A stretch of 35,664 bases of DNA, from NCBI GenBank assembly GCA_029561105.1, contig JAKQJQ010000051.1, positions 1 through 35,664 of the forward strand, given 5' to 3'. Source of the DNA: Bacteroidota bacterium (GTDB lineage: Bacteria > Bacteroidota > Bacteroidia > Flavobacteriales > Flavobacteriaceae). This document shows positions 6,515-30,547 of the stretch, piece by piece (within the stretch, counting starts at the first letter, position 1; each line of letters starts with the position of its first letter). The notes below the pieces were generated by a model. The model saw nothing but the letters and a program-made list of their open reading frames with translations. It searched no databases and had not been told where the DNA came from. Made by a program: the position numbers and the translations under genes.

Positions 6515-7507
6515 ATGATTAAAATCGGCAACATAGAACTCCCGGACTTCCCTTTATTGCTTGCGCCCATGGAGGATGTAAGCGACCCGCCATTCCGCAG
6601 GTTGTGCAAAACGCATGGTGCCGATTTGATGTTCTCTGAATTCATTTCCTCAGAAGGGCTTATCCGCGATGCAATCAAAAGCCGCATGAAACTCGATATT
6701 TTCGACTACGAACGCCCTGTGGGCATCCAGATTTTTGGTGGAGATGAGGAAGCGATGGCAATGTCATCGAAGATCGTTTCTGCGGTAAATCCTGATTTGA
6801 TTGATATCAATTTTGGCTGTCCGGTCAAGAAAGTGGTGTGCAAAGGCGCCGGAGCGGCAGTTTTGAAAGATGTCGATTTGATGGTGCGTTTGACCAAAGC
6901 CGTAATCAAAGGGACCGATTTGCCCGTTACGGTAAAGACGCGTTTGGGTTGGGATGACAACTCGATTAATATTGATGAGGTCGCTGAAAGATTACAAGAC
7001 ATTGGCGTACAAGCCTTGTCTATTCACGGACGTACGCGCGCACAACTCTACAAAGGGGAAGCCGATTGGTCGCACATTGCCCGCGTGAAAAATAACCCGC
7101 GCATCACCATGCCGATTTTTGGGAATGGTGATATTGATTCGGTGGAAAAGGCGATTGAGTACAAGGAAAGATATGGCGTGGACGGCATTATGATTGGCCG
7201 CGCTGCGATCGGGTATCCGTGGATTTTTAACGAGATCAAGCACTACGCAAAAACCGGCGAGAAATTCCCCGTGCCCACGATGCACGACCGTATCGACGCC
7301 GCCCGAAACCACTTGACCTGGGCCATGGAATGGAAAGGCGAGTGGACCGGAATTGCCGAAACGCGCCGCCATTACACCAACTACTTCAAAGGGATTTCAC
7401 ACTTTAAGGAATACCGCCAGAAATTGGTCACGCTTGACAATGCGGCAGATTTGATGAAGGCTTTTGATGAGATCAGTACTGCATTTGCAGATTACTCGTT
7501 TGTCTGA
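6515..7507 (+). CDS. dusB: tRNA-dihydrouridine synthase (DusB type)
   Basis: A 330-residue flavoenzyme that reduces uridines in the D-loop of tRNA with FMN and NADPH. The N-terminus carries LLLAPMEDVSDPPFRRLC, the family FMN-barrel opening. The catalytic cysteine is Cys102 in DINFGCPVKKV, then GAGAAVLKD and TVKTRLGWDD, SIHGRTRAQ, GNGDI and GIMIGRAAIG, the ordered motifs of Dus enzymes. The C-terminal helical domain has the ETRRHYTNYFKG region that contacts tRNA. Length is normal. The ATG start follows a promoter box by four bases. Repeat words of the same family flank the gene on both sides in opposite orientation. The call is firm; assignment to the B subfamily rests on overall similarity. 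Confidence 0.95.
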   Translation: MIKIGNIELPDFPLLLAPMEDVSDPPFRRLCKTHGADLMFSEFISSEGLIRDAIKSRMKLDIFDYERPVGIQIFGGDEEAMAMSSKIVSAVNPDLIDINFGCPVKKVVCKGAGAAVLKDVDLMVRLTKAVIKGTDLPVTVKTRLGWDDNSINIDEVAERLQDIGVQALSIHGRTRAQLYKGEADWSHIARVKNNPRITMPIFGNGDIDSVEKAIEYKERYGVDGIMIGRAAIGYPWIFNEIKHYAKTGEKFPVPTMHDRIDAARNHLTWAMEWKGEWTGIAETRRHYTNYFKGISHFKEYRQKLVTLDNAADLMKAFDEISTAFADYSFV

Positions 7508-7533
7508 GTTGAAAGTCGAAAGTTGAAAGTGGA
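7508..7533. repeat. GAAAGT-word repeat, inverted relative to 6394-6495
   Basis: The stretch just after the dusB stop reads GTTGAAAGTCGAAAGTTGAAAGTGG, three iterations of a GAAAGT(C/T) word. Its reverse complement is made of the CTTTCGACTTTC words seen upstream of dusB, so the gene is bracketed by an inverted pair of the same short-word family. It can pair with the upstream block in single-stranded nucleic acid. Confidence 0.75.
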
Positions 7534-7534
7534 A

Positions 7535-7623
7535 CGGTTGCCTGCGTTAGCGATTGCAGCGGTATCCTTTTGCTGAAGCATGAAGCAAAAGATAGGAGCG
7601 GAAAGCGCGGGCCGACGGCAACG
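7535..7623. repeat. Imperfect palindromic element between convergent genes
   Basis: An 89-base element with short terminal inverted repeats, GTTGCC (7537-7542) and GGCAAC (7617-7622), and a strong central hairpin: TATCCTTTTGCT (7563-7574) pairs with AGCAAAAGATA (7584-7594) with one bulged C and a 9-base loop. The intervening arms are partly complementary (GCCTGCG against CGCGGGC). It has no ORF. It lies between the convergent dusB and permease genes, where it could end transcription from both sides. From general familiarity with Flavobacterium genomes it resembles a dispersed intergenic repeat, but that cannot be confirmed here. Confidence 0.6.
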
Positions 7624-7638
7624 CCAAAAAACAAAGAA

Positions 7639-8838
7639 TTATTCCAATAACTTTTTCGTCACGCGACTCGACGCAATCCACGACGCGACAAATCCAAGCA
7701 AAGTGATCGTGAAGAAAACAACCACTACATTTTGGATTGAGAAAACGACCGGATAAGGCAGCGTAGGCGTAATCATCACGAGGTTGAATTGTTGCTGCAA
7801 AAACACGATGGCCGAACCGATGGCCAAACCAAAAAGCCCACCCAAGACACAAACCAAAGTACCCTGCAAAAGGAAAATGCGGCGCAGGTCTTTGACTTCT
7901 GAACCCAGGTTGTACAAGGTTTTGAGATTGGATTGCTTGTCTATAATGACCATAAAGATCGAGCCCGAAAACGCAAATAGAATGAGGATGATGACGAGTG
8001 TGAAGATGAGGTAAATCGCGACATTCTCGGTATTGAGCATCTTGTACAGGCTGTCGTTGAGTTGCGCGCGGTTCTTTACAGTGACTTTGTTGTTGAAGAT
8101 GCTTTGGAGTTGCGAAACCACAGCAGCTTCATCGGCGCCGGGTTTGAGCTTGCATTCAATTCCTGAAATTTGGTTAAGTTTGAATTCGAGCAATGCTTGA
8201 GTGAGAACAAGGTCGGCGAAAACGTATTTGGAATCGAGTTCTTCGCTTACCGCGTAAATCCCAACGGGTGCGATCTTGAATTTGTTGAAGGCTTCTTCGG
8301 GCGTCTCTATAGTGCCTTTTCCGGGACGCGGCACGAAAACCTCGAACGGATTGTTCATGTCAAACAAGCCTAGTGATAAATGCTGTGCGATGCCGTAACC
8401 TACAACCACTTGCGTAGTATGCGGTTCCAGCCATTGGCCGTTGAAAATGATTTTGTTGACATCGTTGACGCGGCCAAAAAGCGAGTCGACACCTTTGAGG
8501 TAAGTGACCTCTTCCTTACCGTTGAATAAAAAAAGCACGCGCTCTTCGATGATTTTGCTCGAGGCCGCCAAGCCATCTATTTTTTTGAGTTGTGCATCCT
8601 GCTCTGGCGTGACGAAAAATGATTTGCCGAGTGTGGCTGTGATTTTAAGGTCTGGGTCGAAGTTGTTGCTAAACGACAAACTAAACTCGCGTAGACCGCT
8701 GAATACCGATAACACCACAAACAAAGCCATCGCGCCCACGGTAATCCCAATCGTAGCGATGCGGTTGATGATGTTGATTGCGCTGTTTTTGCTCGCGCTG
8801 CGCAGGTAACGTTTGGCTATGTAAAGCGGGAAATTCAC
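7639..8838 (-). CDS. FtsX-like ABC transporter permease (LolC/LolE-like)
   Basis: The 399-residue protein has the FtsX/MacB permease plan: an N-terminal cytoplasmic helix (NFPLYIAKRYLRS), a first membrane span at about residues 25-47, a large periplasmic domain of some 220 residues, then three spans in the C-terminal third and a final basic tail (SSRVTKKLLE). This is the layout of LolC/LolE, which with the LolD ATPase release outer-membrane lipoproteins from the inner membrane. No ATPase gene is present nearby. The start is GTG, placed directly after the rbfA stop codon (TAA-GTG), and the protein begins the way the family usually does, so the GTG is preferred to later ATGs. It shares a transcript with rbfA. 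The lipoprotein-export role is inferred from the family. Confidence 0.85.
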   Translation of the reverse strand: MNFPLYIAKRYLRSASKNSAINIINRIATIGITVGAMALFVVLSVFSGLREFSLSFSNNFDPDLKITATLGKSFFVTPEQDAQLKKIDGLAASSKIIEERVLFLFNGKEEVTYLKGVDSLFGRVNDVNKIIFNGQWLEPHTTQVVVGYGIAQHLSLGLFDMNNPFEVFVPRPGKGTIETPEEAFNKFKIAPVGIYAVSEELDSKYVFADLVLTQALLEFKLNQISGIECKLKPGADEAAVVSQLQSIFNNKVTVKNRAQLNDSLYKMLNTENVAIYLIFTLVIILILFAFSGSIFMVIIDKQSNLKTLYNLGSEVKDLRRIFLLQGTLVCVLGGLFGLAIGSAIVFLQQQFNLVMITPTLPYPVVFSIQNVVVVFFTITLLGFVASWIASSRVTKKLLE

Positions 8839-9231
8839 TTACGATTTTCTGCGTTTTTCGAGGAGTTCGCGGTTGACAATAGGGTTTTCCTTTCCGGCAA
8901 GTGCCTTGTCTATTTTTTCAATGTAGTCTAGAGAATCGTCGATGAAGAAAACCAAATTGGGCACTTTTCGCAATTGCAGCTTGACGCGTTGCGCGAGATC
9001 GTGTTTGATTAAAGGTGTATTGGTTTTAATGGCGGCTAAAGTTTCGGCAGCTTTTTCTTGTGGGAAGATGCTTAAGTGTACGGTAGCGATCGATAAATCG
9101 GAGGTTACCACGACTTTCGAAACTGAAATCACGAGGTTTGAAATACCGTTTTTGCGGACTTCGCCTTGCAGGATATCCACAAGATCTTTTTGGATTACAC
9201 CGCCTATTTTTTTCTGTCTGTTCGTTTCCAT
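8839..9231 (-). CDS. rbfA: 30S ribosome-binding factor RbfA
   Basis: A 130-residue protein, normal for RbfA, a KH-type factor that binds the 30S subunit and helps mature the 5' end of 16S rRNA, needed for growth in the cold. It starts METNRQKKIGGVIQKDL and contains ISVSKVVVTSDLSIATVHLSIFP and the C-terminal strand PNLVFFIDDSLDYIEKID, which are family hallmarks. The frame stays open upstream to about 9594, but that extension runs through repeat DNA and antisense to the epimerase gene, so the ATG at 9231 is chosen. A TATCTTTG promoter box ends four bases before this ATG. The gene abuts the permease gene with no spacer. Confidence 0.93.
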   Translation of the reverse strand: METNRQKKIGGVIQKDLVDILQGEVRKNGISNLVISVSKVVVTSDLSIATVHLSIFPQEKAAETLAAIKTNTPLIKHDLAQRVKLQLRKVPNLVFFIDDSLDYIEKIDKALAGKENPIVNRELLEKRRKS

Positions 9232-9235
9232 GGGG

Positions 9236-9243
9236 CAAAGATA
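9236..9243 (-). promoter_or_regulatory. -7 box TATCTTTG directly before the rbfA start
   Basis: On the - strand TATCTTTG, a full match to TAnnTTTG, is followed by CCCC and the rbfA ATG. The arrangement TTTG-CCCC-ATG is identical to that in front of dusB and implies a leaderless transcript. A TTG lies 26 bases further upstream, again the same spacing as at dusB. Confidence 0.55.
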
Positions 9244-9250
9244 GGGAAAA

Positions 9251-9357
9251 AGGTTCAGGGTACAGGCGGCAAGGTTCAGGGTTTTGCGACAGAAATTCAG
9301 AATCAATATTGCAAGTTTGGTTTTTCCCCTGTACCTTGTACCCTGAACCCTGCACCC
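9251..9357. repeat. GGTTCAGGGTACA inverted-repeat block between rbfA and mce
   Basis: GGTTCAGGGTACA at 9252-9264 is exactly the reverse complement of TGTACCCTGAACC at 9337-9349. Partial extra copies (AAGGTTCAGGG at 9271-9281, CCTGTACC at 9329-9336, CCCTGCACCC after 9349) widen both arms. The block fills the space between two divergent genes and can form a hairpin with a loop of about 70 bases. It holds no gene. The words differ from those around dusB. Confidence 0.8.
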
Positions 9358-18150: not shown

Positions 18151-21100
18151 TTACTGTTTGATGAAATGCTTCACAACCGTTTGGCCTTTAGAAGTAAGTT
18201 CAATCAGGTAAGTGCCGGCTTGGATTTGCGAAACCGGAATCATTCCATTGTCTACTTTTCCTTGTGCCATTTGCTGACCCAAGATGCTGTAAATCTTATA
18301 GGTTGCCTCGTCGGTGCCAGAAACGTTCAACATTGCTCCATTAACCGGATTCGGGTAAAGGCTGATGTCTAAAGATGCCATTTCATTTTCTGTTTCTCTG
18401 GCCGTTGACACAATGTTTACGGTGTAATCTTCAACTTGTCCGTAAGAGAATGCCTCACAAGCGGTTGGCACTGCGTTGTATTTCATTGAAACGCGCATTC
18501 TGGTTGCACCCAATGACGCGGTTGCCGGAATGGTAATGCTACCGGTAACTGGAGTAGTTTTAGAGGCTGTTTTGGTCCAAACCGTTTCTCCTGCATCGGC
18601 AAAGTCGCCATCTTGGTTGTAGTCAATGAATACGGCGTAACCTTCGTTGTAAGTAGTGGCTGTCCAGGATGGCGTGATGGTAATCGTGTAAGCCGAACCA
18701 CGCGTGGCACTAGTGGACAAGGCCGTAAAATTCTCGTATCCGGCGGTTCCCGTAGTAGTGTTGTTGATGGTTCCAAAAACCACCTTTCCTATTTTCTCAT
18801 CAGCAGTGCTGTTGCCTTGCGAAGTACAATAAGTGACAGTTGCAGAAGTCGTGGTAACGTTTACGGTGTTGCTTGCAGCAGATGCGTTTGCAGCAGCATC
18901 TTTTGCAATGACATAAAACGAATATGCGGTAGCAGCAGTAAGTCCGGTAACGGCATAAGTAGTACTTGCGGTATTTGCCCTGAAAACACCATTTTGGTAT
19001 ACGTCATAACCGGTAACACCCACGTTATCAGTCGAAGCGGTCCAGGATAGATTGGTTGTAGACGAGGTGGTTCCCGAGGCTGCCAAACTCGTTGGAGCAG
19101 TAGGCGCGGTTGTATCCGGAGTGCCGGCTACAATATTTACAGTATAATCTTCTACTTGTCCGTAAGAAAAAGTCTCACAAGCAGTAGGAATCGCATTGTA
19201 TTTCATAGAGACACGCATTCTTGTTGCACCCAAAGTGGCAGTGGCAGGAACCGTGAATGATCCGGTAGCCGGAGTAGTGGTAGCTGCAGTTTTGGTCCAA
19301 ACGGTTTCGCCTGCATCAGCAAAATCCCCATCCTGGTTGTAGTCGATGAATACGGCGTAACCTTCTGCATAGGTGGTTGCAGTCCAAGACGGAGTAACCG
19401 TTATGGTGGCCGAGGCACTTCTGGTTAGATTGGTTGACTGTGCAGTGAAATCCTCGTAACCAGCCGTTCCGGTAGAAGTGTTGTTGATGGTTCCCAAAAC
19501 CACTTTGCCGATTTTTTCATCGGCAGTACTGTTTCCTTGCGACGCGCAATAAGAAATAGTTACTGCTGTTGTCGTCACGTTTACGGTATTGCTGGCAGTC
19601 GAAGCATTTCCTGCCGAGTCTTTCGCAATGACATAAAAGGTGTAAGCGGTAGAAGCAGTCAAACCGGTCACGGCGTAAGTTGTAGCGGCGGTATTGGCTT
19701 TGAATACACCATTTTGGTATACGTCATAACCGGTAACGCCCACATTGTCTGTTGAAGCTGTCCACGATAAATTGGTAGTGGTCGCGGTAGTTCCCGAAGC
19801 GGCAAGAGCAGTAGGTGCAGAAGGCGCAGTTGTGTCAACAACTGGTGCCAATGTAGTAACGTTTATCGTGTTACTTGCAGCCGAAGAGTTTCCTGCAGCA
19901 TCTCTTGCGATTACGTAAAAAGTGTAAGCAGTAGAAGCGGCCAGCCCGGTCACTGCATAGGTAGTCGAGGCCGTGTTGGCTTTGAACACGCCATTTTGGT
20001 ATACATCATATCCGGTTACGCCCACATTGTCGGTAGACGCGGTCCAGGATAAGTTGGTAGCAGTTTGTGTAGTTCCTGCAGCAGCCAGCGCTGTTGGGGC
20101 AGATGGCGCAACGGTATCGGTGCTTCCGGCAGTAATCGTAAAATTGGTGTTAGAAACGTCAAAGAAAATATGGTTGGTTCCTTTAACCATGATGCGGTTG
20201 GTGGTTCCCGGAGTATTGGGGATCGTTACGGCTTGCGTTCCGTCGTTTGGAGTAGCCGCCAACAAAGTAGACCAAGTTGTTCCGCCGTTGGTAGAAATTA
20301 GAATGTCTACGTTGGCGCAGTTTACGTTGTTTGCTGTGGTTCCGGCCACGTTCCAGGTGATGGTCTGAGAAGAACCGCCTGCATATGAAACTGCAGTATT
20401 GGGTACAGTTACTGCAAAAGGTCCCGCTGTAGCGTTTACCGTTACAATCATATCGTCGCTGTTGTTTCCTGAGCCGCCGGCGCGGTTGTCGCGAACGGTA
20501 AATCTAAAGTTCATGCTGCGCGCGACAGACGGTAAAGCCTCAACAGTTACTTCTGATCCTGCCGTTGTTGTGGCGCCGGTCAAAACCGAAGCCATTCTGG
20601 GGAAATACCTGGTAGGCGTTGTCACCGGAGTATAAGACCTGAAGTTTACACCGCTCGTTTTAGTGGCATTCGGAGCAGTCGCATTAGACTGTGAATCCAT
20701 TTGTTCCCAGTTGTAGGTTAGCGCGTCACCATTGGCGTCGGTGGCTGTTCCGGTAAGCATGAAAGGAGTGCTTTTTGGGATGGTGTAATCCAAACCTGCG
20801 GCAGCCGTCGGGATAGAATTGCCTGTTGCGGTATTTACCGAGCAGGTTTTTGCCTTGATATTGTTGGTGATTTGTTGGATGCTGACTGCATGGAAATACG
20901 CGTCAGAATGCGGCTGTACATCCACAGAAGTAATACCTGCATACCCCATAATGGTAGATCCGCTTCCAGGTTCCATCTGAACACCGGTACCTTCGTTGCT
21001 GTGTGTAAAAGTGTGGTTTCCGCCAAACTGATGGCCCATTTCGTGCGCCACATAATCGATATCGAAATTGTCTCCTGAAGGAATATTATCACCAGGCGAC

Positions 21101-22086
21101 GTAAATCCGCTTCCTTTCCCCAACGGAACCGAAGCCGTTGGATTGGTACAGATACAACCAATGCAACCCGCGTTTCCGCCGCCACCCGAAGCGCCAAATA
21201 AATGCCCGATGTCGTAGTTCGCGTTACCAATATTGTTGGTCAGTGTCGTTTGTAATTCCTGGTTCCAGGCGCCGCCCGATCCGGTTGCTGCGGCAGAATA
21301 CGGGTCGGTAGAAGCGCTGGTGTAGATTACGGTGTCGGTATTGGCAATCAAAACCATGCGCGCCGAGAAATCTTTTTCAAAAACACCATTGACACGCGTC
21401 ATCGTATTGTTGATCGCAGCCAAAGCCAAAGCCTTAGTTCCGCCAAAATAAGCGGTGTATTCACCCGTTACCGACATCGCAAGACGGAAAGTACGTAACA
21501 ACGCATCATCAGCATTCGGGCGTGCAGCAGAAACGCCAGATTCTTCTTGTGCCTGGTCAATCACACGGCATTCAAAACGGTTCATTGTGGCCATTTTATC
21601 CGATTTACGGTACACGGCGTAAGAACTCCTGTCGGTGGTGTAAGGCTCAATAAACACAGCCGATTGGTCTGACTTGATCACCATACTCTGGAAACCAAGC
21701 GGCGATATGCTGAAATAGATCGTAGAAGCCTGATTGTCAATCCCTTGACCCATGTAAGATTTGATGTCTGGATACCTTGCTGCTAGTTCGGGCGCCATAT
21801 TGGAGGATTCCTTCACGCGGAAGCTTTCAAGCTGGCCGTTCTCGTTGGGAAAAGTAACCACGATTCCGCTGCGGTTTGATGCAAAACGGCTGGGTGCCGT
21901 TCTCAAATTTTGTTTGAGTTGGTTCACGTCAAGCGAAAATAAACGCGGATTGAGAATGTTTTCTTTGTTGGCAACCGTTACCGCTTCTGGGTTTTTCACG
22001 GTCGACTTCCATAGTGTTCTTCCTGTTTGGGCAAAGGAAAAACTAGTGATTGCAAGCAGTGCAATCGAAAGTAATTTGTTTTTCAT
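18151..22086 (-). CDS. Secreted reprolysin-like metalloprotease with FN3, GEVED and T9SS sorting domains
   Basis: A 1311-residue secreted zinc protease. In order it has a signal peptide (1-19), a propeptide region to about 190, a metzincin catalytic domain with HEMGHQFGGNH (about 348-358) and Met-turn STIMGY (Met380), a region to about 655 with PKD-like and other beta domains, an FN3 domain (from 660), a second FN3 (754), a GEVED domain (845-985), a third FN3 (994), a second GEVED (1085-1227) and a type A T9SS sorting domain from about 1238 (YPNPVNG ... AGTYLIELTSKGQTVVKHFIKQ). The FN3+GEVED pair is a 240-residue tandem duplication. The start at 22086 gives a clean signal peptide, though an in-frame ATG lies 39 bases earlier. 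The type IX system should carry it across the outer membrane, with cleavage of the C-terminal domain, to digest proteins outside the cell. Confidence 0.94.
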   Translation of the reverse strand: MKNKLLSIALLAITSFSFAQTGRTLWKSTVKNPEAVTVANKENILNPRLFSLDVNQLKQNLRTAPSRFASNRSGIVVTFPNENGQLESFRVKESSNMAPELAARYPDIKSYMGQGIDNQASTIYFSISPLGFQSMVIKSDQSAVFIEPYTTDRSSYAVYRKSDKMATMNRFECRVIDQAQEESGVSAARPNADDALLRTFRLAMSVTGEYTAYFGGTKALALAAINNTMTRVNGVFEKDFSARMVLIANTDTVIYTSASTDPYSAAATGSGGAWNQELQTTLTNNIGNANYDIGHLFGASGGGGNAGCIGCICTNPTASVPLGKGSGFTSPGDNIPSGDNFDIDYVAHEMGHQFGGNHTFTHSNEGTGVQMEPGSGSTIMGYAGITSVDVQPHSDAYFHAVSIQQITNNIKAKTCSVNTATGNSIPTAAAGLDYTIPKSTPFMLTGTATDANGDALTYNWEQMDSQSNATAPNATKTSGVNFRSYTPVTTPTRYFPRMASVLTGATTTAGSEVTVEALPSVARSMNFRFTVRDNRAGGSGNNSDDMIVTVNATAGPFAVTVPNTAVSYAGGSSQTITWNVAGTTANNVNCANVDILISTNGGTTWSTLLAATPNDGTQAVTIPNTPGTTNRIMVKGTNHIFFDVSNTNFTITAGSTDTVAPSAPTALAAAGTTQTATNLSWTASTDNVGVTGYDVYQNGVFKANTASTTYAVTGLAASTAYTFYVIARDAAGNSSAASNTINVTTLAPVVDTTAPSAPTALAASGTTATTTNLSWTASTDNVGVTGYDVYQNGVFKANTAATTYAVTGLTASTAYTFYVIAKDSAGNASTASNTVNVTTTAVTISYCASQGNSTADEKIGKVVLGTINNTSTGTAGYEDFTAQSTNLTRSASATITVTPSWTATTYAEGYAVFIDYNQDGDFADAGETVWTKTAATTTPATGSFTVPATATLGATRMRVSMKYNAIPTACETFSYGQVEDYTVNIVAGTPDTTAPTAPTSLAASGTTSSTTNLSWTASTDNVGVTGYDVYQNGVFRANTASTTYAVTGLTAATAYSFYVIAKDAAANASAASNTVNVTTTSATVTYCTSQGNSTADEKIGKVVFGTINNTTTGTAGYENFTALSTSATRGSAYTITITPSWTATTYNEGYAVFIDYNQDGDFADAGETVWTKTASKTTPVTGSITIPATASLGATRMRVSMKYNAVPTACEAFSYGQVEDYTVNIVSTARETENEMASLDISLYPNPVNGAMLNVSGTDEATYKIYSILGQQMAQGKVDNGMIPVSQIQAGTYLIELTSKGQTVVKHFIKQ
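18388..19827 (-). repeat. 720-base tandem duplication (FN3+GEVED unit) inside the metalloprotease gene
   Basis: Bases 18388-19107 and 19108-19827 align with a constant offset of 720 bases and no indels seen by eye. For example the segment at 18410 (ACAATGTTTACGGTGTAATC) and that at 19130 are near identical, as are 18991-19020 and 19711-19740. The copies have drifted mainly at third positions. A third FN3 copy alone lies about 282 bases further along (around 19830-20110). Confidence 0.88.
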
Positions 22087-22316
22087 GATTTGGTGTAAAT
22101 GGGTTAGGTTAAAATTAGCGGTCAAACATAAAATTAATTTTAACCGTTAATCAACAGTTTCCATAAATTAATTAACAAATCGACAAACTACATCGATTAA
22201 ATTTGAAAGATGCGCAAGTATAAACTAAAAATAGTAAGATTATCTTATTTAAATAAAATGACTTTTCTTACGTTTTACCTACTCCAAAAAAAGTTATTTT
22301 TATCAAAAATTTTCGG

Positions 22317-25557: not shown

Positions 25558-26139
25558 TTAATCAGCGATTATAATTGGATAAATGACTTGCGCATCGGTA
25601 GAACCAGCGGCATTGGTTATGTCTCCGTCAGAAACGCCTGCGCCATTTTTATTTGGTTCGTGAATCAAGGTAATTATTAAATCTCCCGAGACGTTGTCAG
25701 TACCAGTAGTAAAAGTGAAATTCAGCCCCAAGGGTTTACCATTGACATCGGTGTCGGTATAGGCGAATGATCCAAATGTCGCAGGTGCCTGGTAAAAAAT
25801 CTGGTGTTCGTCACTTTCTTCCTCTATTTCTGCGGTAATATTGTCTGTCGGTGTGGCCAACTCATTGAGGAACGTAACGGCGCCTGTATAGACCGTGTTT
25901 TTCTTTAGCGGTCCCGAGACGGTGACCACAGGTGCATCGGGGCCGTCACCATCCAAATCGCGCGAAGTGAGCGTCACCACGTCTGAGCCATTGGTTAGGG
26001 TAGTGGTTACTGTAGTGATGACTTCTTCTTCATTTACCGGTATATATACCGCAGGATTGTCGTCATTGCTACAAGCAGAGAAAAAAGTGAGTGCCAACAA
26101 GGCAAGTGATGAGGTTTGGATATTTTTCATAATCTTCAT
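25558..26139 (-). CDS. Lipoprotein encoded with a TonB-dependent receptor
   Basis: A 193-residue lipoprotein: signal peptide ending FFSAC (Cys23), then SNDDN, an acidic sequence after the lipidated Cys that in Bacteroidetes favours surface export. The mature part is beta-rich and acidic (TTVTTTLTNGSDVVTLTSRDLDGDG, EIEEESDEHQIFYQ) with DTDVNGKPLGLNFTFTTG. I do not know a characterised homologue; similar proteins are usually found next to TonB receptors in flavobacteria. It begins three bases after the receptor stop, so it is the last gene of the operon. Met4 (26130) is an alternative start. A role as a surface partner that hands ligand to the receptor is inferred from position, as with SusD-type lipoproteins, though it is not SusD-like in size or sequence. 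Confidence 0.75.
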   Translation of the reverse strand: MKIMKNIQTSSLALLALTFFSACSNDDNPAVYIPVNEEEVITTVTTTLTNGSDVVTLTSRDLDGDGPDAPVVTVSGPLKKNTVYTGAVTFLNELATPTDNITAEIEEESDEHQIFYQAPATFGSFAYTDTDVNGKPLGLNFTFTTGTDNVSGDLIITLIHEPNKNGAGVSDGDITNAAGSTDAQVIYPIIIAD

Positions 26140-26142
26140 GTT

Positions 26143-28527
26143 TTAATAATTAATTTTTAATTGAATTTGGAAGTTCCTGCCGCTTTCATCCGCAAAAAAG
26201 CGTTGACGGTTCAGGTAGTCCCGGTAACTGGTGTTTAGGATATTTTGAACAGAAAAGGCAATGACTGCGCTGGTCTTGCCCACGACTTTTACCTTTACTT
26301 CAGAGTAAAAATGCAACAAATGGTAGGCAGGCGGCGGTGTGCTGATATCGACAACTACGGGTACCTGCAGTCCATCTACTATAATATTGGTTTCAAAGTT
26401 ATTCATAGGGTACTGGTTTTGCCTGCAAACCCACTCACTCTTCAACTCTAAAACCAACGCGTGCCAGTCTTTTCGAGCGTATTGAATCTTGTTGACCAGA
26501 TTGGTTGGCGGCATGTCAATAAGGTCTTCGTTTTCACTCAGGTCTCGTCCGGCAACAAAAGCGGCAGTAAAATCATGGGTCCAACGCGGTGAAAGTTGCA
26601 ACCTGGAATGGAGGTCAAGTCCAGCCAGTCGGGCATTGGTCTGGCGGTATTCCCAAACCGGGAAAGCCCCGCGGATGGTGGTTTCAAAACCAACGGGCTG
26701 CAAGAACATATAGTCCTGGATTAGGTTGAGGTAAGGATTGATATCGATCGAGAACAAATTCCATTTTTTTTGTACCGTAGTCGACAGTTTGAAGGCTTTC
26801 TCCTGATTGAGCCGCAATTCGCCCAACTCGATGATTCCGGTAGCGTGGTGCAAGCCGTCGCTAAACAATTCTGACGGATTTGGGTTTCTCGACGCCAGGC
26901 TTGCGTTGGCATACCAGTCCCAATCGTGGTGAAATTGCTTGCGAAAACCAACACTTGCAGAGAGGTTATGAAATGTAAAAGAAGGCTTTGTCAACCATTG
27001 GCTGCTCTGTTCTCCAAAAATAAAACGCGAGAATTCGGTGTCGTAACCGCGTTCGGCCCAGCGTGACTTCTGGTAAAATTTAATGGCGTCAATCTTTGAA
27101 AAATCGTAACGGATGCCCGATTCAACGATAAAGGAATCCGAAAAGTCATAATTAAAGATGCCATATAACCCAGTGTCAAACTTTTCGTGGGTTGGGATCA
27201 AAGGGCGTACTTTGGTATCGGGGTTGGCGAAATTGTGTTGGTAACTACCGCTAATCCCCGCTTTGAAAGCCCAATTTTGCGATTTCCTTTTGTAATCGAT
27301 CTGGCCGGTATGTGTTAGAAGTTCCAGATCAAGGGCGGCCAGATTGCTATAGTCGCCGCGCCTTACATCGAATTCCCTGCGCTTGTTAAATTGATACGCA
27401 TACTGGAAAGTGAGTGATCCTGTGTCGTCCCAATAACGAGTCAACGCGGCTTTAACCAATTGATGGTTAACCTGTTGTTTTGGGTTGCCAATGGTGTACG
27501 TGAAATCATTCACCACGGCAGGGACATGGTTATTGATGGAATTGTACAAATCGGTCACGTTTCCCGTATGCGACGCGCCCAGAATACCGATTTCGGCATT
27601 GTAGAAACTGTAGAAAATAGAGGCATCATATGTTTTACGGGCAAATTTCACATCGCCCGTAAAATTGGCCTCACGGTTTCCGGTATTAGACAAAACATAG
27701 TCGGGCGCCTGGCGATCGCCCATGTATTTGAAAGTACCTAAGGCATTCCAGCTCCAACCATACTGATTGCCTTTGTGGAGACTGGAACTAATACTTCCGC
27801 CCCTTCCGTTCGAAGACAGGGTTGCAATCGATTTCCCAAACAACGTATCACGAACAGAAGCCAACGGCTCGAGAATGACCAGTCCGCCAACGGCATCGCC
27901 TCCATACTGCAAGCCTGAGGCACCCTTGATAACGGTGATTTTTCCCGCTGCGTTGACATCAAAATTCGGTGCGTGTTCTGTTCCCCATTGCTGGTCTTCG
28001 AGCTTCACATTGTTGCTGATGACAGCAACCCGACTGCCATACAAACCATTAATGATTGGCTTTACCACCGTGCTTCCGGTTTTGAGGCTGGAAATTCCAG
28101 GTACTTCCTTTAGCGCGTCGCCTAGCGTCTGGCTACTGTATTTCTCTATGGTCTCTTGTCTAATGCGTTGTTCGCGCATCGATGCGTTGTGCGTATTATT
28201 GGTGCGTACGACACCTACCTCGTTTAGGCTGGTGATGTTCTCTTTGAGTTTGAAATCAAAGTTCAGGTCATCATTTATCACAACCAGTGTATCTATGGAT
28301 TTGTAACCCAGGTAGGACACATAGATACGCGCTTTTCCGGCCGGGATGTCAGGTGCCAGATAATTCCCGGTATCGTCGGATGAAACCGTTTTAGGCCCAA
28401 TGTGGATGTGGCTGCCAGCCAGCGGAATGTCTTTGTCGGTGGTCACACGACCATTGACACGGAATTGAGCGAATCCAACACCGCAGTAAAACAGTACGCA
28501 ATACAGGAATACTTTTTTTTGCTGCAT
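26143..28527 (-). CDS. TonB-dependent outer-membrane receptor, probably for a metal
   Basis: A 794-residue receptor. After the signal peptide (MQQKKVFLYCVLFYCGVGFA) comes a carboxypeptidase-regulatory-like domain (about 21-95: VNGRVTTDKDIPLAGSHIHIG), then the plug with LGDALKEVPGISS, INGLYGSRVAVISNNVKLED and VIKGASGLQYGGDAVGG, and a beta-barrel that ends in an aromatic residue (KINY). TonB and ExbBD energise such channels to import metals, siderophores or glycans. QQWGTEHAPNFD in the plug and the His/Cys-rich protein encoded upstream point to a zinc or copper-type ligand. The ATG at 28527 is chosen because it gives the signal peptide; the frame extends 54 bases further. The ligand is inference. 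Confidence 0.88.
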   Translation of the reverse strand: MQQKKVFLYCVLFYCGVGFAQFRVNGRVTTDKDIPLAGSHIHIGPKTVSSDDTGNYLAPDIPAGKARIYVSYLGYKSIDTLVVINDDLNFDFKLKENITSLNEVGVVRTNNTHNASMREQRIRQETIEKYSSQTLGDALKEVPGISSLKTGSTVVKPIINGLYGSRVAVISNNVKLEDQQWGTEHAPNFDVNAAGKITVIKGASGLQYGGDAVGGLVILEPLASVRDTLFGKSIATLSSNGRGGSISSSLHKGNQYGWSWNALGTFKYMGDRQAPDYVLSNTGNREANFTGDVKFARKTYDASIFYSFYNAEIGILGASHTGNVTDLYNSINNHVPAVVNDFTYTIGNPKQQVNHQLVKAALTRYWDDTGSLTFQYAYQFNKRREFDVRRGDYSNLAALDLELLTHTGQIDYKRKSQNWAFKAGISGSYQHNFANPDTKVRPLIPTHEKFDTGLYGIFNYDFSDSFIVESGIRYDFSKIDAIKFYQKSRWAERGYDTEFSRFIFGEQSSQWLTKPSFTFHNLSASVGFRKQFHHDWDWYANASLASRNPNPSELFSDGLHHATGIIELGELRLNQEKAFKLSTTVQKKWNLFSIDINPYLNLIQDYMFLQPVGFETTIRGAFPVWEYRQTNARLAGLDLHSRLQLSPRWTHDFTAAFVAGRDLSENEDLIDMPPTNLVNKIQYARKDWHALVLELKSEWVCRQNQYPMNNFETNIIVDGLQVPVVVDISTPPPAYHLLHFYSEVKVKVVGKTSAVIAFSVQNILNTSYRDYLNRQRFFADESGRNFQIQLKINY

Positions 28528-28597
28528 TTTCTGTTCAAAAATAAATAAACGAATAACCCATTCCCGTTGAGGAATGAGCACAAGTGTGTATTAATTT

Positions 28598-28942
28598 TTA
28601 AGCAGTGGGTGGGCCTCGCAGCGAATAGGAAATGCCCGAAAAAGAACAGGGCGTTTCAGGAATGGTAAAAAAGTAGGGGATTTTTTGGTGTGTAGAAAAA
28701 AATGAAATACCCGCAATTTCGGGAGCGACAAAATTACCCAGACTAAATTCGCAGAGATAACAATGATCCAAGTGACTGTGTTCATGGGTAAATTGCGGTT
28801 TTCCCTTTTCTACCTTATGGATGCATTGGTTGGTAGAGTATGTAGCAATGATGTGCTCAAAGGCATGCGTTGCCGGAAAGACTATCGATGAGAGCACCGA
28901 CAGCAGCAGCGAAATATTGAGTATAGCTACATATTTTTTCAT
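28598..28942 (-). CDS. Small His/Cys-rich exported protein heading the TonB-receptor operon
   Basis: A 114-residue protein with a hydrophobic N-terminus (MKKYVAILNISLLLSVLSS), so it is exported or membrane-anchored. The region at about 26-64 has seven histidines, at 26, 30, 42, 53, 55, 57 and 60 (FTHEHSHLDHCYLCEF), and CxxC at 61-64, which is a likely metal-binding patch. The C-terminus is YSLRGPP, a tail I associate with this group in flavobacteria. It precedes the TonB receptor by 70 bases in the same direction. A metal sensor or chaperone role is inferred. The ATG lies five bases after a -7 box, suggesting a leaderless mRNA. Confidence 0.75.
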   Translation of the reverse strand: MKKYVAILNISLLLSVLSSIVFPATHAFEHIIATYSTNQCIHKVEKGKPQFTHEHSHLDHCYLCEFSLGNFVAPEIAGISFFSTHQKIPYFFTIPETPCSFSGISYSLRGPPTA

Positions 28943-28947
28943 TGGCC

Positions 28948-28955
28948 CAAATATA
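28948..28955 (-). promoter_or_regulatory. -7 box TATATTTG of the metal-uptake operon
   Basis: On the - strand TATATTTG, a full TAnnTTTG match, is followed by GGCCA and the ATG of the His-rich protein. Transcription would start at about the start codon. No TTG was found at the usual spacing. No clear Zur-like palindrome was recognised. Confidence 0.5.
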
Positions 28956-29098: not shown

Positions 29099-29513
29099 AT
29101 GAAATAATTACTATTGTCGGCCTTGCCAATACTCATACTCCCGTGTAGTTCAAACGACGACAACTCCAATTCCTGTGATACCCACGCCTGCTGCCGGTGT
29201 CGCTTATTTTAGAGGGAAGGTGAATGGTGTCCCAACCAATTACCTTACTGAGGCGCAAGATGATTCTCACCTCAAAGGTGTTGAAGTCAATTACGAAAAG
29301 AACGGAAACCAATACAATTCAGCGTACGGAAGCCAGACAGGGAGTACTTTTACCGTTACCAGTGCTACACAAGGCATCGAAGCCGGAGGAAGCGCAAAAA
29401 TCAAAACCATCGTTGGTACTCTGAATTGCAAACTTTATAATGTGGACGACATTTCGGGCGTCATCAACATTACCAACGCAAACTATAAAGTAATCCTTAG
29501 GGAAGAATTATAA
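29099..29513 (+). pseudogene. Broken lipoprotein gene (nonsense plus frameshift)
   Basis: From the ATG at 29099 the frame reads MK-stop-LLLLSALPILILPCSSNDDNS, a lipoprotein signal (lipobox ILPC) interrupted at codon 3 (TAA where AAA for lysine would be expected). A shift of frame is then needed within about 29150-29175 to enter the open 112-codon stretch that runs to 29513. That stretch continues VAYFRGKVNGVPTNYL, AYGSQTGSTFTV and ends INITNANYKVILREEL, which looks like a beta-rich small lipoprotein. Two lesions together argue for a decayed gene, unless the sequence has errors. The open part alone could start at GTG 29175 but would lack any signal sequence. The family is not identified. Confidence 0.7.
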
Positions 29514-29530: not shown

Positions 29531-29558
29531 AAAAAGAGCGCCCTAAAGCGCTCTTTTT
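29531..29558. terminator. Terminator between the broken lipoprotein gene and asd
   Basis: AAAAAGAGCGC (29531-29541) pairs perfectly with GCGCTCTTTTT (29548-29558) around a 6-base loop with A and T runs on either side. The asd stop codon TAA (on the - strand) overlaps the end of the stem, so it serves both directions. Confidence 0.88.
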
Positions 29559-30547
29559 TATACCAGCTTGTTGGCCACCAGGTATTCGGCAATCTGCACG
29601 GTGTTGGTGGCAGCACCTTTCCTGAGGTTGTCGGCTACAATCCACATATTGATGGTATTGGGTTGGCTCTCGTCGCGACGGATGCGGCCCACGAATACCT
29701 CGTCTTTGCCGTGCGCGTACATCGGCATCGGATAAGTATACGTGTCGGTATTGTCCTGGAGGACCACGCCTGGTGTATGGTGCAAAATATTTCGCACTTC
29801 GCCCAGGTCAAAATCATGAGTAAATTCAACATTCACCGCTTCGCTATGGCCGCCTACCACCGGAATCCTCACGGCAGTAGCAGTCACGGCGATGGTTTTG
29901 TCGCCGATGATTTTCTGTGTTTCACGCACCAGTTTCATCTCTTCCTTGGTGTAGCCGTTCTCTTCAAAAACGTCGCATTGCGGAATGGCGTTGCGGTGGA
30001 TGGGATATTTGTAGGCCATCTCGCCATTGATTCCTGCATATTCATTCTCTAACTGCTGCACGGCTTTTACTCCGGTTCCCGTAATCGATTGGTAGGTCGA
30101 GACCACTACACGTTTGATGTTATATTTTTGGTGTAACGGTGCTAATACCATCACCATTTGTATCGTTGAGCAATTGGGATTGGCGATGATTTTGTCGGCT
30201 TTTGTCAATTCCGAAGCGTTGATTTCAGGGACGACGAGTTTTTTTGTAGGATCCATCCGCCACGCAGACGAATTGTCAATGACCGTAGTCCCTGCCGCGG
30301 CAAATTTTGGCGCCCATTCGAGCGAGGTATTTCCTCCGGCCGAAAACAGTGCGATGTCTGCCTTCATATCCACTGCGGTTTGCATGCCTACGACCTTGTA
30401 ATTTTTTCCCTTGAAAGCAATTTCTTTTCCTACCGATTTTTCGGATGCCACGGGAATGAGTTCGGTCACCGGAAAATTCCTTTCGGCCAAAACCTGGAGC
30501 ATTACTTCGCCTACCATTCCGGTAGCGCCAACTACAGCAACTTTCAT
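29558..30547 (-). CDS. asd: Aspartate-semialdehyde dehydrogenase
   Basis: A 329-residue NADP-dependent enzyme that makes aspartate semialdehyde from aspartyl phosphate, feeding threonine, methionine and lysine/diaminopimelate. The N-terminal VVGATGMVGEVMLQVL is the nucleotide loop. The catalytic Cys126 lies in NPNCSTIQ and the base His234 in VGGHSEAVNVEF. Length is normal. The gene is monocistronic, with a promoter box about 36 bases upstream and a terminator overlapping its stop. The diaminopimelate branch is a functional neighbour of MurF-Alr located downstream on the + axis. Confidence 0.95.
   Translation of the reverse strand: MKVAVVGATGMVGEVMLQVLAERNFPVTELIPVASEKSVGKEIAFKGKNYKVVGMQTAVDMKADIALFSAGGNTSLEWAPKFAAAGTTVIDNSSAWRMDPTKKLVVPEINASELTKADKIIANPNCSTIQMVMVLAPLHQKYNIKRVVVSTYQSITGTGVKAVQQLENEYAGINGEMAYKYPIHRNAIPQCDVFEENGYTKEEMKLVRETQKIIGDKTIAVTATAVRIPVVGGHSEAVNVEFTHDFDLGEVRNILHHTPGVVLQDNTDTYTYPMPMYAHGKDEVFVGRIRRDESQPNTINMWIVADNLRKGAATNTVQIAEYLVANKLV

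Follow-up and report, generated by a model that had tools for sequence, protein, structure and literature searches.

Which metal does a TonB-dependent receptor operon serve when it is headed by a small His- and Cys-rich open reading frame (ORF), and what is the role of that ORF? This question is raised by contig JAKQJQ010000051.1 of Bacteroidota bacterium assembly GCA_029561105.1 (Flavobacteriaceae; G000, 416 contigs), of which we analyzed a stretch of 35,664 nucleotides (positions 1 to 35,664, hereafter the window). Three genes follow each other on its minus strand: the small ORF, which we term the leader (28942-28598), the receptor gene (28527-26143), and a lipoprotein gene (26139-25558). 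An earlier note, made from the sequence alone, had read them as a compact system for metal import across the outer membrane, with a lipoprotein at the cell's surface, and had seen in the small protein a periplasmic metal carrier. The import reading is supported by sequence, and we arrived at another role for the small gene. We consider it probable that the operon responds to metal starvation, zinc being the likeliest metal, and that a nascent-chain sensor stands at its head.

Conservation of the three-gene operon

We looked for relatives of the receptor (E values up to 1e-60) and of the lipoprotein (E values up to 1e-5) in 149 genomes of the family. The receptor was found in 63 and the lipoprotein in 62; 61 genomes harbored both and 3 only one of the two, a co-occurrence that exceeds chance (Fisher test, with P values that ignore shared ancestry). 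Matches to a lipoprotein profile extended across the phylum (78 of 345 genomes).

We then examined the best 80 of at least 537 candidate loci encoding a lipoprotein relative (termed named loci), many of them from Flavobacterium and the remainder mostly from other flavobacteria, several of which are marine. Receptor and lipoprotein genes were adjacent in these 80 loci. The receptor lies upstream in 78 of them, separated by a short gap, and on the downstream side in the other two (L126 and L145). In 76/80 named loci, the receptor is preceded by a small ORF on the same strand, and the leader was still the first gene in L126 and L145, where the order of the other two is swapped. Among more distant loci, a receptor longer than 650 aa was encoded directly upstream of the lipoprotein, or one ORF before it, in 33 of 40; the same holds for L193, in which the ORF caller had missed the lipoprotein frame. 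Exceptions include L184, L186, and L211, with short frames or a contig end, L212, where the receptor gene is further off, and L149, on a Bernardetia plasmid, which has no receptor gene beside the lipoprotein gene. The three-gene order pointed out by the earlier note is real, and the genes form a widely conserved operon.

The leader ORF

The leader (114 aa) has a hydrophobic N terminus, as read from its sequence, and contains eight His and four Cys overall; the CxxC described by the note is present, and its count of seven His is one too low. A putative metal site, HEHSHLDH-CYLC (residues 53 to 64; 28751-28786, minus strand), includes the CxxC at residues 61 to 64 (C61 and C64). Forty-four residues past the CxxC and two from the C terminus stands an arrest-type motif, RGPP (residues 109 to 112; 28607-28618, minus strand), so that the ORF ends in RGPP-TA-stop.

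This layout is close to that of CruR from Bordetella pertussis, described as a protein of 145 residues with CXXC at 90 to 93 and RAPP at 139 to 142, encoded by the first gene before a TonB transporter (PMC9426467). In that account, arrest at RAPP is relieved by copper, upon which Rho terminates transcription, and the CruR protein was undetected by proteomics (PMC9426467). The arrest has been demonstrated in vitro (PMC12992588) and explained by ribosome structures (PMC10951233). According to the article on the in vitro work, arrest is most stable at RGPP, and in many phyla no other four-residue word is excluded as strongly (PMC12992588). The CruR-BfrG(CrtA)-BP2921 operon and that of the window both comprise three genes, with a small leader carrying a CxxC and, near its end, an arrest-type motif, followed by a TonB transporter (PMC9426467; PMC12914433); the spacing from CxxC to motif is 45 residues in CruR and 44 in the window leader, which, by gene order, also comes first before its transporter. 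They differ in that the third gene encodes a PepSY_TM inner-membrane protein in B. pertussis and a surface-type lipoprotein in the window, and in that the window leader has RGPP and a His cluster and would respond to zinc, as suggested below, rather than to copper. CrtA, the copper receptor of the CruR operon, forms a sequence cluster separate from OprC (PMC12914433).

CutF of Rhodobacter offers a second comparison. Its ORF, described as exported, is likewise small, with a metal motif and a C-terminal PP, directly upstream of the regulated gene and followed by an intergenic stem-loop; unlike the window leader, it controls a multicopper oxidase, and copper promotes a stall-like process instead of relieving an arrest (PMC9973294). 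The survey in the same article lists many CutF-like proteins in Bacteroidota, with TonB proteins among their frequent neighbors, so that large numbers of such leaders ahead of TonB genes are already on record (PMC9973294).

To count motifs, we chose the ORF upstream of each receptor by its position and His plus Cys content, not by motif. This gave 97 ORFs: 76 from the 80 near loci, 20 from 41 distant loci (a total that includes L149), and the leader of the window itself; a wrongly picked ORF in L109 was replaced by hand for the motif count, and L109 was excluded from the hairpin and promoter counts. An [RK]xPP motif with 2 to 7 trailing residues ends 92 of the 97, compared with 6 of 376 other small ORFs, 5 of which proved to be leaders of the same operons missed by the neighbor rule. 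The motif is RGPP in 60 leaders, RAPP in 29, KAPP in 2, and KPPP in 1. CxxC was present at the expected place in 57/92, with a gap of 43 to 45 residues to the Arg in 53 of these 57 (44 in the window). Among the 35 leaders lacking it there, 34 retain a Cys 45 to 48 residues ahead of the Arg and 32 an HxH or HH. Five chosen ORFs lack the end motif (L188, L189, L215, L216, and L219); those of L215 and L216 look MerC-like by eye, and in L219 an ORF with RGPP sits one gene further up. The pattern C-x(46-48)-[RK]xPP-x(1-7)-end was specific, as all of its 89 matches in 1,615 ORFs are leaders of these operons (85 chosen ones and the 4 missed in L126, L145, L193, and L212).

Across 38 aligned leaders, mean identity is 19%, C61, P111, and P112 are invariant, and conservation is limited to one Cys (usually within a CxxC), one His, and the C-terminal R-G/A-P-P at fixed spacing. 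These features bear on the carrier role of the earlier note, in which the small protein would be a stable periplasmic partner of the receptor. The protein is indeed exported-looking and rich in His and Cys, and its gene is the same-strand neighbor of the receptor gene in 76/80 named loci; against a carrier, conservation hardly extends past one Cys or two, a single His, and R-x-P-P, the fixed spacing and C-terminal position match arrest leaders, secreted CutF is reported to be degraded rapidly (PMC9973294), and CruR escaped proteomics. We regard a carrier as quite improbable. The sequence, with its CruR/CutF architecture, points to a regulatory arrest leader as the most likely role of the small gene.

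Promoter and intergenic RNA

We take TAnnTTTG to be the -7 consensus of Bacteroidota and also assume its distance to the transcript start. An element of this type, TATATTTG, lies at 28948-28955 (minus strand) and ends 5 nt upstream of the leader ATG. In 30 of 76 loci, TAnnTTTG ends 2 to 7 nt ahead of an in-frame start of the leader; 44 of the 76 have it within 35 nt, compared with 42 of 1,520 random windows. Its position so close to the leader start suggests a leaderless or nearly leaderless mRNA. The earlier note had proposed a search for a Zur- or CsoR-type site near 28948; the -7 element occupies this place, no Zur site was seen there, and CsoR-type sites were not searched for.

Between leader and receptor, the window contains a predicted hairpin (28556-28579, minus strand; z -3.51 against 200 dinucleotide shuffles). 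In the 75 nt past the leader stop, folding with z < -2 relative to shuffles was obtained for 23/76 loci and for 1/76 control stretches, and in many short marine intergenic stretches the hairpin is weak or absent. Subgroups do not share one register in the hairpin alignment (A5), which we therefore did not use to assess covariation.

The TonB-dependent receptor

The receptor (26143-28527, minus strand) has 794 aa when read from the ATG at 28527 to the stop at 26143, the ORF caller having started at a GTG at 28581. It carries an N-terminal carboxypeptidase-regulatory-like domain, followed by plug (E 1e-14) and barrel (E 4e-14) domains in Pfam. In L098, L110, L135, and other receptors, the carboxypeptidase-regulatory-like domain has Cys/His positions that are not in the window receptor. 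A profile built from 42 receptors retrieved the zinc receptor ZnuD first (4rdr, E 3e-47), and ZnuD was also the best Foldseek match of the predicted model (mean pLDDT, 85.8).

In Neisseria meningitidis ZnuD, zinc is bound by Asp99, His100, Glu340, and His499 (PMC4557270). Three of the four ligands have counterparts by alignment, D99, H100, and H499 corresponding to E184, H185 (27973-27978, minus strand), and H560 (26845-26850, minus strand, with H561); the mapping was checked, since His100 and His499 are both fitted by the same offset, 14, between the numbering of the chain and that of the paper. H185 and H560 are conserved in 42/42 receptors, E184 in 41/42 (one Asp), and H561 in 38/42. Outside these likenesses of fold and ligands, the window receptor differs from ZnuD by its low identity (16 to 19%), its extra N-terminal domain, its association with a lipoprotein and a leader, and the absence of a ZnuD-type His-rich extracellular loop 3 (at most 2 His per 12 residues, from residue 101 on).

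The copper receptor OprC has a similar fold, and its copper ligands, which include C143 and M147 (PMC8610252), are not kept in the window receptor, where they align with Q180 and E184. Past residue 110, no Cys column reached 50% in the 42 receptors, and one Met column did (M672, 24/42). NCBIfam models for both receptor types scored far from their cut-offs (NF038289 for ZnuD, 91.6 versus 950 bits; TIGR01778 for the OprC copper receptor, 74.9 versus 472 bits). The best NCBIfam score, 109 bits, was that of a heme receptor (TIGR01785), and the heme receptor HasR shares its His-clamp geometry with ZnuD, so the receptor might import heme or another chelate while the leader senses a different signal. 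The 109 bits lie far under the cut-off of 317, and ZnuD outranks heme receptors with both the profile and Foldseek (a heme link of lipoprotein or leader was not searched for), which makes such a system highly improbable in our judgment.

The surface-type lipoprotein

The third gene (25558-26139, minus strand) encodes an acidic protein of 193 aa in which the lipobox Cys23 is followed by SNDDN (26056-26073). This stretch, with a polar residue and an acidic run at +2 to +6, resembles the lipoprotein export signal, whose consensus is given as SDDFE/SDDDD (PMC5080379), and 61 of 66 aligned lipoproteins have at least two acidic residues at these positions. The core is predicted as a beta-sandwich (pLDDT mostly 93 to 98). 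H112, H160, E37, E39, D61, D63, E104, and D182 are invariant in the 66 sequences.

Nothing was retrieved with the lipoprotein in Pfam, NCBIfam, or PDB sequence searches, and Foldseek gave no match at E < 0.001. VIA-align returned middling Z scores to Ig-like and other beta-sandwich domains (best, 9.4), and we therefore name no relative. The lipoprotein belongs to no described family in the libraries searched, in agreement with the earlier note, and we recognized no description of it in the open-licence literature. Pairs of a TonB receptor and a surface lipoprotein are represented in Bacteroides by BtuB-BtuG and XusA-XusB, both among the structural matches; their ligands differ from those considered here, the pairing in our case comes from gene order and co-occurrence, and the lipoprotein folds were not compared. 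The lipoprotein is present as a tandem pair in one genome (G462 C1:1067652-1068941), and in L149 (6307-8426) it comes after a lipoprotein-like protein of 401 aa that matches no Pfam family.

Zinc context in relatives, and copper as an alternative

We scanned 77 of the 80 named loci for Zur-like boxes, leaving out 3 with an unusable receptor start or reversed order. Eleven loci, all from Flavobacterium, have an exact GCAAC-N3-5-TTGCA box in the 1 kb ahead of the receptor start, with a GCAAC-N4-TTGCA box preceding the leader. Fifteen such sites lie upstream of receptors, compared with 16 in the other 1,103 kb of the same loci. We also searched ten genomes, seven of which have a box at the operon; TGCAACNNNNTTGCA gave 45 matches in them, compared with 6 for a reversed control. 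From a reading of 18 stretches and four loci, boxes stand upstream of a Fur-family gene in 6 of the ten genomes (G487 to G491 and G493), and genes near boxes encode MerC, FolE (E 1e-75), a pterin synthase, and a ZigA-like GTPase (E 6e-169); several further matches fall inside unrelated genes. A GTPase of the COG0523 type, a group tied to zinc and Zur (PMC2770081), is encoded after the lipoprotein in two distant genomes, L212 (by eye) and L216 (by Pfam, with one opposite-strand ORF between). In Caulobacter, a zinc-efflux operon activated by Zur is described as having a DUF2946 gene at its head (PMC4176598). The Riemerella zinc papers name several TonB receptors, none tied to this receptor family. 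Zinc, one of the metals listed as candidates by the earlier note, is the best supported, through the Zur-like context in relatives and the ZnuD-like ligands.

Several results weigh against a zinc-responsive operon headed by a CruR-like leader. No exact box was found within 1 kb in 66 of the 77 loci, and the window contig has no exact Zur-type box or TGCAAC palindrome anywhere. The three unboxed genomes also have 2 to 6 pattern matches, with 6 in the window genome. The boxed regulator had no match in the window genome, in a search without a positive control; a lone Fur-family match there lies next to a purA-like frame and is unlike the boxed regulator by eye, and cobW-family (COG0523) matches in the same genome are weak (best E 3e-7). 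The ZigA-like match, 562 bits, is under its cut-off of 600, and, of the boxed Fur-family genes, the one scanned with Pfam (L118) scored 21.8 versus a cut-off of 23.1 bits, the others being assigned by eye. With respect to the receptor, Glu340 of ZnuD is outside the profile alignment, OprC came first in a single-sequence search, and in VIA-align OprC (Z 40.3) ties with ZnuD (Z 39.1). As for the leader, the window sequence, unlike CruR, has no DUF2946 (PF11162) match in Pfam; DUF2946 was matched by 4 of 38 relatives at E up to 1 (best, 1.5e-4) and, among ten leaders scanned singly, by L202 (21.2 versus a cut-off of 23.7 bits). Neither the leader nor the lipoprotein of the window belongs to a Pfam or NCBIfam family above cut-off. 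Since the similarity to DUF2946 is weak, we liken the leader to CruR in its mode of action without assigning it to DUF2946. Lastly, CutF-like relatives mostly head copper operons (PMC9973294; PMC9426467), and L184 has its genes in an apparent copper island, beside a heavy-metal ATPase.

No box common to all loci was seen, the palindrome being confined to the 11 Flavobacterium loci, and no general motif finder was run. A palindrome in contig C93 of the window genome was dropped, as it lies inside a methylase-like frame.

Some of these points would fit a Bacteroidota CruR-receptor-lipoprotein system with the same arrest-leader design that imports copper ions, as the characterized relatives CruR and CutF sense copper, the CxxC is the copper-sensing motif of CruR, and the receptor is as close to OprC as to ZnuD in VIA-align. 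Such a system accords poorly with the loss of C143/M147 and the near absence of Cys and Met columns from the receptors, with the 35 of 92 leaders that lack the CxxC at its expected place while mostly keeping a single Cys and an HxH or HH, and with the Zur-like regulon context. Moreover, RAPP/RGPP upstream ORFs (uORFs) of the TonB class are reported throughout Gram-negative bacteria, whereas, according to the same source, those of the copper class are missing from groups such as Bacteroidota (PMC12992588). We infer that the operon serves metal uptake and consider copper unlikely, zinc being the likelier metal.

Neighboring genes

A 112-aa ORF without a clear start or signal (29175-29513, plus strand) lies between an asd gene (29558-30547, minus strand) and the leader and has no Pfam match; as an asd-type gene is often next upstream in relatives, this ORF may be what is left of a lipoprotein-type gene that was inserted there. 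About 3.4 kb downstream of the operon, the window encodes a reprolysin-like metallopeptidase that contains fn3 and GEVED domains and carries a tail for type IX secretion (18151-22125, minus strand).

In L141 (4831-5133) and similar marine loci, a gene for a DUF6787 membrane protein (identified by Pfam in L141 only) stands directly before the leader or overlaps it, and these loci are likely four-gene operons. L185, a distant relative, has a DUF4198 protein gene downstream of the operon (8574-9299). In L193, a second receptor-like frame follows the operon directly (6716-9175; 27.6% identical over 613 aa to the receptor of the window), and after it comes a His-rich protein that looks cation-efflux-like by eye.

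Proposed mechanism and significance

We propose that, under metal shortage, a ribosome translating the leader would pause at RGPP, two codons ahead of the stop, and that the receptor and the lipoprotein would then be expressed. When metal is present, it would bind the His/Cys cluster emerging from the exit tunnel and release the arrest, and the downstream genes would be shut off, perhaps via the intergenic hairpin or Rho. The lipoprotein would be exposed on the outside of the cell, sitting on the receptor or next to it, possibly in complex with it, and would aid in the capture of the ion, which the TonB-driven ZnuD-like receptor would carry into the periplasm through its Glu/His site.

On a broader scale, the chances seem to us about even that the leaders make up a phylum-wide family of zinc-sensing arrest peptides, CruR-like nascent chains with a zinc-reading His/Cys site that one clade has pared down to an HxH and a single Cys, gating a two-part surface zinc receptor, composed of a ZnuD-like barrel and a new beta-sandwich lipoprotein, and doubled in some species by Zur at the promoter. 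We recognized neither the operon, nor its Zur link, nor a zinc-sensing arrest peptide in the open-licence literature.

If the proposal is true, the leader would be, to our knowledge, the first translational zinc sensor of such a type. The system offers parts that can be named and tested: a receptor whose ligands are predicted, a surface-type lipoprotein of an undescribed family, and a leader. The leader carries the arrest motif that is reported as the most stable and the most avoided in many bacterial phyla (PMC12992588). Leaders with and without the second Cys would form a natural set for asking how arrest peptides select their metal.

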